DNA of 64,000 nucleotides from the NCBI RefSeq assembly GCF_023544465.1, contig NZ_JALPVL010000008.1:310001-374000 (forward strand), in the 5' to 3' direction. Positions 11,594-13,318 of the stretch are shown here, in pieces. How positions within the stretch are numbered: the first letter of the stretch is position 1; each line of letters begins with the position of its first letter. This DNA comes from Paractinoplanes maris. Lineage in GTDB: Bacteria > Actinomycetota > Actinomycetes > Mycobacteriales > Micromonosporaceae. Position numbers and translations under genes: made by a program. Under the pieces are notes generated by a model. It was not told the origin of the DNA. It was given only the letters and a program-made list of their open reading frames with translations, and did not search any database.

Positions 11594-11623
11594 GTAGCCC
11601 GCCCGTGGGGGATATCGGGCTAC
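11594..11623 (-). terminator. Probable terminator after LGFP-repeat gene
   Basis: An 8-bp perfect stem (GTAGCCCG / CGGGCTAC) with a 14-nt loop sits just beyond the LGFP gene's stop on the minus strand. It separates that gene from the lipoprotein-glycosyltransferase operon. Confidence 0.45.
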
Positions 11624-11628
11624 GGCTG

Positions 11629-13089
11629 CTACTGGTGCCAGCGGGCGATACCCGCCGAACGACGGGTCACCAGGCCCGCCTCGAAGAACTGGACGGTGTC
11701 GGGACCGTCGCCGATCGTCTGCTCCGGGTGGGTGGGAAAGCCGATGTCGGGGCCGAGGATGGCCAGGACGTCCTCGCGGACCGCGATGGAGTCGTGTTCG
11801 GGGCTCCAATAGATGGCGCCGCCCTCGAAGGGCTGGATCCGGCGGCGGGCGTCGGCCTTCCGCGGGGCGTCGGTGGGGAAACCCAGCCAGGAAGCGGTGC
11901 CGCCCAGGCGCTCGTAGAGGATCCCGATACCGGCATCGACGGTGTGGGTTCCGTGTGTCGAGGTGTAGACGGTGGCGCCACCGGGATGGTCGAAGCCGAT
12001 GCAGGCGGCCACCAGGTCGTCGGGGTAGTCCCAGGCGCCCTCGAAACGCTGGAACCGGCCGTCGGTACCTTGCGGCGACCGGCCGGCGGCGTGCGATTTT
12101 CCCCGCGGGAAGCCGAGACGGCCGTTCACCCCGCCGAGGACGTCGTAAAGTTCCCGCACCGGTGACATGATCTCGATCGCCCCGACCGACTCGGTGAAGG
12201 CGATGCTGCCCCGCTCGAACGGTTGGATCCAGCCGTGGTCGCCGGTGCCGTTCTTGCGCGTCGGGCCCGCTTCTTGCTCCGGGCCGGTGGGAAAACCGAA
12301 CCGTTCGACGCTTCGGTGGCTCTCGTAGTGCTCGCCGATGCCACCCCACGTGGCGAAGGTCCCGTGCTTCTCGCTCCGGTAGACGGTTGCCCCACAGACC
12401 ACACCGAGCCGCGAGCATGTCTCGGCGCTGTAGTTGCCCAGGAATTCGAAGTGCTGACGAGTCCCCGCTTCCGCGCCGACCTCGAAATCGGTGGGTGGCG
12501 TGAGCGGAAAGCCCAGCGGTCCTTCACTTCCCCCCGACTCGAGATAAAGATCGGCGATGGGGTCCGTGGTCGGGTGGGCGCCCCCTCGTGCGGACCAGAA
12601 GACCGCACCATCTCGATACATAATGTAGAAACCGTCGGTTCCTTGGGGTGACAGCTGCGTTCGGCGAAGAAAATCAGGCTTGGCGCCGAGAACTTCGCCC
12701 CACTTGTCGTGAACTCTCGACATCGCTTCCGCCGCCGCCGGCACATCCGCCAAGCCCTGCAGATCCGGCCCGCCGCGACTGATCAGCGCTCGGGCTCGAG
12801 CTGGGTGCATCACCGCGACGAGTGCGACGGCGTACTCCTCGTCGACCGAGTACAGGAGACGCAGAACTTCATCCGCGTCCTTCTCCGGCGCGGCTTTCAT
12901 GATCTGGTCAGCGTCGTCGACGTCCAGCTGCCGAAGTTCCCGAACGACTTTCCATGGGGCGGCCCGGCCGATCAACCCGAGATCGAGCGTCTTGCGCGAC
13001 TCATTGTTGATCTGAATGTTGTTGTTGCCGGCCTGGACACCGCTGCTGCCGTGGACCGAGGTCTCGATATGCCGAGGTTCAGGGTCCAC
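11629..13089 (-). CDS. Cytosolic LGFP-repeat protein with RHIM-like amyloid motif
   Basis: A 486-residue protein from GTG 13089, which has AGGAG 5 nt upstream; longer starts lack a ribosome site. It has no signal peptide or membrane segment. Residues 16-29 read SGVQAGNNNIQINN, matching the RHIM/pseudo-palindromic amyloid core (V-Q-x-G-x-x-N). Residues about 30-150 form a helical region resembling the adaptor part of bacterial conflict proteins. The rest carries five LGFP-type repeats (PLGFPL, FGFPTG, LGFPRG, LGFPTD, IGFPTH), a fold usually found in secreted wall-associated proteins. The combination suggests a signalling adaptor or sensor inside the cell rather than a wall protein. Function unproven. 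Confidence 0.75.
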   Translation of the reverse strand: MDPEPRHIETSVHGSSGVQAGNNNIQINNESRKTLDLGLIGRAAPWKVVRELRQLDVDDADQIMKAAPEKDADEVLRLLYSVDEEYAVALVAVMHPARARALISRGGPDLQGLADVPAAAEAMSRVHDKWGEVLGAKPDFLRRTQLSPQGTDGFYIMYRDGAVFWSARGGAHPTTDPIADLYLESGGSEGPLGFPLTPPTDFEVGAEAGTRQHFEFLGNYSAETCSRLGVVCGATVYRSEKHGTFATWGGIGEHYESHRSVERFGFPTGPEQEAGPTRKNGTGDHGWIQPFERGSIAFTESVGAIEIMSPVRELYDVLGGVNGRLGFPRGKSHAAGRSPQGTDGRFQRFEGAWDYPDDLVAACIGFDHPGGATVYTSTHGTHTVDAGIGILYERLGGTASWLGFPTDAPRKADARRRIQPFEGGAIYWSPEHDSIAVREDVLAILGPDIGFPTHPEQTIGDGPDTVQFFEAGLVTRRSAGIARWHQ

Positions 13090-13225
13090 CAGTGCTCCTG
13101 CCGGCTGAGGGGTATAAGCGGCAGTCAGTATCACCCCGGAGCGGGCGGTCGGAAACCGGACAAACGGCCGGGTTCACGGGCCAGGGGTATGATGGCCGCT
13201 GCGGTGAACGAGGAGTGCTTCATAG

Positions 13226-13243
13226 GTTAACGGCAGGTTAACG
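13226..13243 (+). promoter_or_regulatory. Direct-repeat operator candidate (PHO-box-like)
   Basis: The heptamer GTTAACG occurs twice with 11-bp spacing (13226-13232 and 13237-13243) in the gap between the divergent LGFP and CYTH genes. Response regulators of the OmpR/PhoP type bind such 11-bp direct repeats, and the actinomycete PHO box has the form GTTCACC repeated at the same spacing. The match is partial, so the cognate regulator is only a suggestion. Confidence 0.4.
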
Positions 13244-13318
13244 AGCAGCGTTCCTCAGGAAAACGGTTGAGGGTTGTCGATCTAGGGAAGAGGACGTTTT
13301 GTTTCGCCGATTCGGGCA

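Follow-up and report, generated by a model that had tools for sequence, protein, structure and literature searches.

What does a protein do that joins a RHIM-like amyloid motif to repeats of a wall-binding type? We met this combination in a 64,000-nucleotide stretch of contig NZ_JALPVL010000008.1 (hereafter the window) from the 9.35 Mb genome of Paractinoplanes maris, where a preliminary description of the DNA had proposed a 486-aa protein without export signal, built from an N-terminal RHIM-like motif, a helical adaptor-like region and LGFP repeats, as a possible sensor in a prion-like conflict or cell-death pathway. Published BASS families are defined by adjacent gene pairs. BASS3 is the RHIM-like bacterial amyloid signalling motif (PMC7889193, PMC8086366, PMC12261475), and in published pairs the motif at the N-terminus belongs to the receptor side (PMC7889193). 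According to the same review, components of BASS systems have been made into prions artificially. The features discussed below are collected in Table 1.

Table 1. Features of the LGFP gene and its surroundings, in positions of the window
Feature	Position	Strand	Basis
Whole gene, 486 aa	11629..13089	-	GTG start 13089; open reading frame and two full-length orthologues (58-59% identity)
Ribosome-binding site AGGAG, five bases 5′ of GTG	13095..13099	-	Identical in 3/3 species
Residues 10-30, gapless alignment with 21-residue Frankia BASS3 peptide	13000..13062	-	Peptide from PMC8086366, Table 2
RHIM/BASS3-like motif core, residues 16-29, SGVQAGNNNIQINN	13003..13044	-	Profile, published-peptide and orthologue comparisons
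Helical domain, residues about 39-133	12691..12975	-	AlphaFold2; weak MgtE-N / FliG armadillo-like fold matches
LGFP repeats, residues 144-486	11632..12660	-	Pfam LGFP, PS1 structures 6swz/6sx4, signatures
Accessory segment, approximate	11596..13185	.	Absent from relative G055 (empty site); ends by eye from alignment

The frame is read on the minus strand (13089 to 11629), which the preliminary description had not specified. No signal-peptide-like stretch follows GTG 13089, as judged from the start and from hydrophobicity, the best 12-residue stretch of the N-terminus having a mean Kyte-Doolittle value of 0.7. A longer GTG start at 13134 is retained in P. polyasparticus and reads GCG in P. pyxinae, and the 15 residues that it would add in P. 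maris contain one short hydrophobic run and zero basic residues; on these two grounds, a cleavable signal peptide by way of this upstream GTG was ruled out. The claim that the protein lacks an export signal therefore appears sound for either start, and a signal peptide revealed by a different start, which had been named as a finding that would overturn the proposal, did not emerge. We infer that the protein is probably cytosolic. No NTPase domain was found in it with Pfam, PADLOC or NCBIfam, and no catalytic or effector domain with Pfam; the PADLOC defence library gave zero matches. The full-length structure model was poor (pLDDT 37.7) and was excluded from the fold searches.

The identification of the motif was examined with several references. 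Residues 16-29 read as the preliminary description had given them and are indeed RHIM-like, while Pfam RHIM (PF12721) scores the 486-aa protein at 10.1 bits (E=0.66), under the gathering score of 20; among six further motif proteins scanned from this genome, three also fall under the cut-off, at 15.5-18.5 bits, and the remaining three are unlisted at E<=0.5. The Frankia BASS3 peptide (ORT49035.1, residues 103-123), for which aggregation with amyloid properties has been reported (PMC8086366), scores 44 against the N-terminus. The runner-up among 912 frames of the window reaches 27 and the best of 10,000 shuffles 36, so that 0/10,000 attain the real value; the N-termini of the two orthologues score 41 and 46, again with 0/10,000 shuffles each. 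At the DNA level, the genome has 20 occurrences of a GxxNxQxN pattern versus 9 of its reverse. Read in frame by eye, 8 of the 20 (in 7 proteins, the present one included) fit an extended pattern that surrounds G-[VIF]-Q-[IV]-G or something very similar, and the other 12 looked like chance.

Profiles gave the same picture. With the gene under study left out of the seeds, a seven-motif profile run on the whole genome returned its own six members at E 1e-10 or better, then the 486-aa protein at E=0.0096, and nothing after it better than E 0.91; the orthologues of P. pyxinae (G042) and P. polyasparticus (G041) were matched at 4.4e-5 and 0.0114. A search with amyloid-motif profiles had been proposed earlier, and this profile does recover the protein. 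The seeds had been picked by a pattern derived from the protein's own motif, and one of them (L041) had been found with its N-terminal region; the profile was therefore rebuilt from the six others. On 60-residue N-termini the six-motif profile gave 16.5 bits for P. maris and 23.9 and 15.3 bits for the orthologues (12.6, 19.0 and 11.3 bits on whole frames), and when the first 40 residues were shuffled, 0/10,000 reached the real score in any of the three species (maximum for P. maris, 14.2 bits). Since these six seeds are still pattern-picked, the published Frankia peptide is the clean test. The motif departs from the usual form at A20 (usually I or V) and at N22 (usually D or S), and has no aromatic residue after the last N, and its capacity for templating is uncertain because of this divergence. 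Loss in orthologues had been named as a sign against the motif; 2/2 orthologues retain it, though the N-terminal region around it is the most diverged. By sequence comparison, we place it among the RHIM-like (BASS3) motifs of the genus, as a divergent one, sitting at the N-terminus, the end favoured by the NLR-type proteins of Paractinoplanes.

The P. maris genome contains two BASS3-type receptor/small-protein gene pairs, and a BASS3 network thus exists in it. On contig C2, the motif stands at the C-terminus of a 150-aa protein and again at the N-terminus of the product of the following gene, a TPR protein (368.6 bits for NCBIfam FxSxx_TPR against a cut-off of 300; 14.9 bits for Pfam NB-ARC, E 0.016, under the cut-off); the two genes overlap by one base. 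On contig C6, a 1699-aa STAND_TPR protein (PADLOC 1.7e-93) has a looser N-terminal motif, seen by eye (profile E 1.04), and is followed by a 125-aa protein whose C-terminus, VDLRDAKGVQIGDHNVQHNTF, closely resembles the Frankia peptide. Contig C31 carries a 273-aa protein with a C-terminal motif beside a weak nSTAND3 match (0.00065, under the cut-off), and this neighbour has zero motifs of at least 12 bits. Proteins joining the same motif to NLR domains had been suggested as something to look for, and both NLR-type proteins and small proteins with a C-terminal motif were found. Candidate partners with a C-terminal motif in the genome are L059:4473-4925, L060:6445-6822 and L062:5222-6043.

Across the genus, the seven-motif profile matched 25 of 67 genomes at E<=0.05. 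All three genomes with the LGFP gene have other motif proteins, as against 25/67 in the genus, a weak co-occurrence with a chance probability of about 0.048 (25x24x23 / 67x66x65, assuming independence, by hand). We scanned 47 loci, 42 of which had been fetched around profile matches and were hence chosen for the motif; at a threshold of 12 bits, 62 motif instances were counted, spread over 59 ORFs at 45 of these loci (L107 and L147 are one place, counted twice). At 8 of the 47 (L059, L134, L138, L139, L142, L143, L152 and L153, with a gap of about 560 bp in L139), a small protein with a C-terminal motif adjoins a large NTPase/TPR-type protein with an N-terminal motif. NB-ARC or NPHP3_N was detected at E<=0.01 in 11 of 20 longer motif proteins (under the Pfam cut-off in L134, L142 and L144), and all 11 are within the 15 that exceed 690 aa; the other four of these have TPR and DUF7779 among the matches listed (L143, L149), VWA (L150) or nothing (L132), and the five shorter proteins scanned have no NTPase. 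Ten further motif proteins, nine of them with a C-terminal motif, include three PNP_UDP phosphorylases and one alpha/beta hydrolase. The small proteins and enzymes of the genus thus carry the motif mostly at the C-terminus, and the range of protein types accords with a review's account of BASS motifs (PMC7889193). PNP_UDP proteins with a C-terminal motif occur in P. pyxinae (L131) and P. polyasparticus (L136), with no other motif ORF in the 6.5 and 7 kb examined around them. As a constant partner this type was ruled out, for 15/67 genus genomes match it at E<=1e-10 and P. maris is not among them; no single constant partner is therefore seen.

The repeats that follow the helical region were described correctly: Pfam LGFP (PF08310) gives 97.8 bits against a gathering score of 22, and five [LFI]GFP signatures (at residues 192, 264, 325, 402 and 449) are joined by a degenerate one (364). 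Corynebacterium glutamicum PS1 (6swz, 6sx4), whose LGFP repeats bind the cell wall, matches this part at E 5e-12 from the single sequence and 1e-17 from a profile, and lysins of two Rhodococcus phages (three records) align to it with 25% identity over 62% of the query. Within its genome this is the sole gene with LGFP matches at E<=0.001. With the most favourable start chosen for each, eight of the ten other genus LGFP loci examined have a hydrophobic stretch at the N-terminus (1.76 to 2.58), and L006 (0.29) and L008 (0.77) do not, so the missing hydrophobic N-terminus is not unique to the present gene. The BASS3-like motif, at 8 bits or more, was seen in none of the other LGFP proteins at 20 loci, four of which (L173, L176, L177 and L182) are cut at the 5′ end.

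Between motif and repeats, AlphaFold2 predicted seven helices for residues 29-143 from three sequences (pLDDT 84.7, pTM 0.72). The best Foldseek matches of this model were to FliG (middle domain) and MgtE (cytosolic N domain), at a best E of 0.12 and with zero matches at E<=0.001. In a second fold search, the FliG/MgtE matches in the top eight rows had Z 8.1 to 11.4 (FliG, Z 11.4, rmsd 7.1, 112 aligned; MgtE, Z 9.9, rmsd 4.0, 91 aligned), values which for helical repeats are in the range of common helical arrangements. Pfam MgtE_N scores 13.8 bits (E=0.084) on the 486-aa protein, under the gathering score of 25.9, and no death fold appears among the 50 rows listed by either fold search. The helices proposed earlier are seen in a confident model, and by these best but weak matches the region may be closer to the MgtE-N/FliG armadillo than to a death fold. 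When motif and helices were searched together in 354 family genomes, 12 gave a match at E<=0.01, three of these being the full orthologues (P. maris included). The other nine comprise five response-regulator frames (L036, L037, L038, L040, L043), one hydrolase-like frame (L042), the N-terminal motif of a large protein (L041), a match across a stop codon (L044) and L039. The last, also sampled as L204 (G077), is a P-loop-like protein by eye in which no BASS3-like motif was found and whose C-terminal helices weakly match the helical region (E 0.0025); it may perhaps be a true distant relative of that region.

Full-length copies of the gene exist in 3/67 genus genomes (P. maris included), always between a CYTH gene and downstream lipoprotein-like/glycosyltransferase genes. 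In the relative G055 the same neighbours lie about 270 bp apart and the LGFP gene is missing; the neighbours are 87% (CYTH), 90% (Kup) and 79% (lipoprotein gene) identical, so that the first two genes place G055 at the same distance as the orthologue species and the third places it further away. Arrival of the gene together with its neighbours was ruled out, as the neighbours are conserved and only the segment itself is absent from G055. Five relatives (L124-L128) keep the CYTH gene and have neither the LGFP gene nor the downstream genes in the stretches examined. No other frame in the window scores above 8.2 bits with the six-motif profile, and at the two orthologue loci no frame within about 8 kb to either side exceeds 3.6 bits. 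As judged from these loci, the gene is stand-alone and accessory. In this comparison the whole protein is 60% identical to that of P. pyxinae and 58% to that of P. polyasparticus (dN 0.30 and 0.34, dS 0.95 and 0.73, respectively), compared with 82-96% for eight neighbours (dN 0.03-0.13, dS 0.21-0.49), and the first 143 residues diverge most, at 48% and 40% identity to the two orthologues, respectively. Because dS is raised too, with dN/dS below 1, replacement of alleles may account for the divergence rather than positive selection; the rates suggest constraint with deep allelic divergence or replacement and do not prove positive selection. Between the gene and the CYTH gene, the divergent intergenic region (13135-13318) is conserved in blocks among the three species.

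Taking these lines together, our best explanation, which we hold with about even confidence for and against, is that the gene product is receptor-like, does without an NTPase and belongs to the Paractinoplanes BASS3 network, its LGFP part binding a glycan-type ligand and its N-terminal tag templating effectors encoded elsewhere. The parts, their order, the motif family and the BASS3-type network can be read from the sequences; ligand binding, clustering, templating in trans and a harmful outcome are what we would infer from them. The LGFP repeats would bind a glycan-type ligand to which the cytosol becomes exposed upon envelope damage or infection; it could be a precursor or a fragment of the wall, or else a component that is glycosylated or comes from a phage. 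Clustering driven by the ligand, perhaps aided by the helices, would gather the N-terminal motifs, which could then nucleate a short cross-beta seed; the seed would template the C-terminal motifs of separately encoded effectors, for which the three proteins named above are candidates, and the templated effectors would set off a response that harms or kills the cell. In favour of the receptor reading we count the real and conserved motif, the genomic pairs, the NTPase domains of long motif proteins, the N-terminal placement, the other motif proteins in all three genomes and the LGFP match to PS1, and further the conserved Shine-Dalgarno sequence, the non-hydrophobic N-terminus, the accessory and diverging gene and an adaptor-plus-lectin precedent. 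Against it we count the lack of an adjacent motif gene in three species, the divergent motif, the missing constant partner, the weakness of that co-occurrence, the poor full-length model, a raised dS with dN/dS below 1, and the two other LGFP loci of the genus that also lack a hydrophobic N-terminus. The broader proposition, that receptors free of an NLR ATPase exist in RHIM-like signalling and that a cytosolic, wall-glycan-binding LGFP protein nucleates BASS3 fibres directly and triggers effectors elsewhere, is one that we put forward tentatively and think somewhat unlikely.

Comparison with known systems shows what would be new in such a receptor. As in BASS3 systems, the motif aligns without gaps to the Frankia peptide, stands at the N-terminus on the receptor side and has such pairs in the same genome; here, however, it is fused to helices and LGFP repeats, and since neither an NTPase nor an adjacent partner was found, the gene is not of the published two-gene NLR kind. 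With PS1 and the Rhodococcus phage lysins it shares LGFP repeats detectable by Pfam and by the PS1 structure sequences, but no signal peptide or catalytic domain was found in it and it does have a signalling motif. With mammalian RHIM proteins (PMC9444067) it shares the core V-Q-x-G-x-x-N, according to the consensus given in the preliminary description, whereas the Pfam RHIM cut-off is unreached and the architecture is unrelated. The nearest precedent is provided by conflict proteins that combine an adaptor with a lectin (bDLD3-NPCBM, bDLD3-FGS) and occur with tandem PNPase proteins in multicellular bacteria, including actinobacteria (PMC8195603). These likewise join an adaptor to a carbohydrate-binding-type module and come with separately encoded proteins such as PNPase, although the present lone gene has a short amyloid-type motif in place of a death-like domain, and LGFP as its module.

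Several other readings of the same protein were weighed. As a dampener or decoy, it would use a motif lacking effector or NTPase to cap or sequester BASS3 fibres and so limit accidental activation, with the LGFP part tethering it near wall synthesis. That neither an effector domain nor an NTPase was found and that the motif is divergent would suit this role, and a viral decoy RHIM has been published (PMC7375649); several LGFP repeats nevertheless exceed what a decoy needs, and the N-terminal motif position matches most NLR-type proteins of the genus, which leaves the decoy unlikely, though the strongest of the alternatives. We think it improbable that the protein is instead exported by a non-classical route, or released by lysis, as a wall protein whose motif forms a surface amyloid unrelated to intracellular signalling. 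LGFP repeats are on record from proteins of the cell surface (PMC2447325), related repeats occur in phage lysins, and L006 and L008 likewise lack a hydrophobic N-terminus, but the conserved start, the non-hydrophobic N-terminus, the hydrophobic starts available to 8/10 other genus LGFP loci and a motif of the type found in the genome's receptor/small-protein pairs all point the other way.

Ranking just after that export reading is an executor, in which the LGFP part is itself the output and, once released or exposed as BASS3 pores open, binds the wall or its precursors and blocks wall synthesis. Wall binding by the LGFP repeats of PS1 and the several kinds of motif-bearing proteins in the network are in keeping with it, yet it is the C-terminus, rather than the N-terminus, that bears the motif in most small proteins and enzymes of the genus, and Pfam finds no enzymatic domain in the 486 residues. 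Least probable by far is a low-complexity motif that arose by chance in an unremarkable LGFP protein: the sub-threshold Pfam RHIM score would allow it, but we rejected it on the shuffles (two references, three species) and on the genome-wide rank directly after the profile's own members, and both orthologues keep the motif despite 39-47% identity over the first 147 alignment columns.

A 2021 review asks whether fungi or bacteria have NLR-independent signalling amyloids and points out that amyloid searches had so far been biased to NLR/executor architectures (PMC7889193). The gene described here is a concrete candidate for one, with two orthologues and candidate partners in the same genome, a natural control in the empty site of G055 and a motif that is a single short peptide. 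If the receptor reading is true, wall-type repeats would be used inside the cell, like the proposed lectin modules of conflict systems (PMC8195603), in a bacterial analogue of an NLR-independent RHIM receptor. Among the titles listed by a literature search, none linked LGFP repeats to amyloid signalling, and LGFP is absent from the main texts of PMC7159879, PMC8195603 and PMC12261475.

Some further motif proteins of the genus were observed along the way. The N-terminus of the 273-aa L062:5222-6043 resembles a nucleotide cyclase start by eye, with only weak RHIM from Pfam. Two P. maris proteins, L061:4329-5648 and L063:4843-6117 (the latter about 53 kb from the LGFP gene), form one family of 425-548 aa with proteins at L130, L133, L137 and L148, at 23-34% identity in 13 of 15 pairs and with a motif-only match or none in the other two. 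By profile, its members have one internal BASS3-like motif or two, and by eye L061 has three; the five scanned (L133 left out) have no Pfam domain save weak RHIM in L130; at L130, L137 and L148 a small protein with a near-C-terminal motif lies nearby, as if the family had replaced the NLR. The enzymes with a C-terminal BASS3-like motif at L131, L132, L136 and L129 are three PNP_UDP proteins and one alpha/beta hydrolase, and PNP_UDP proteins with other amyloid motifs have been published in fungi. Finally, L150:2159-4546 of P. polyasparticus is a VWA-domain protein with an internal BASS3-like motif, next to an apparent trypsin-type gene (by eye) and a small gene, an arrangement that recalls the VWA ternary conflict systems.
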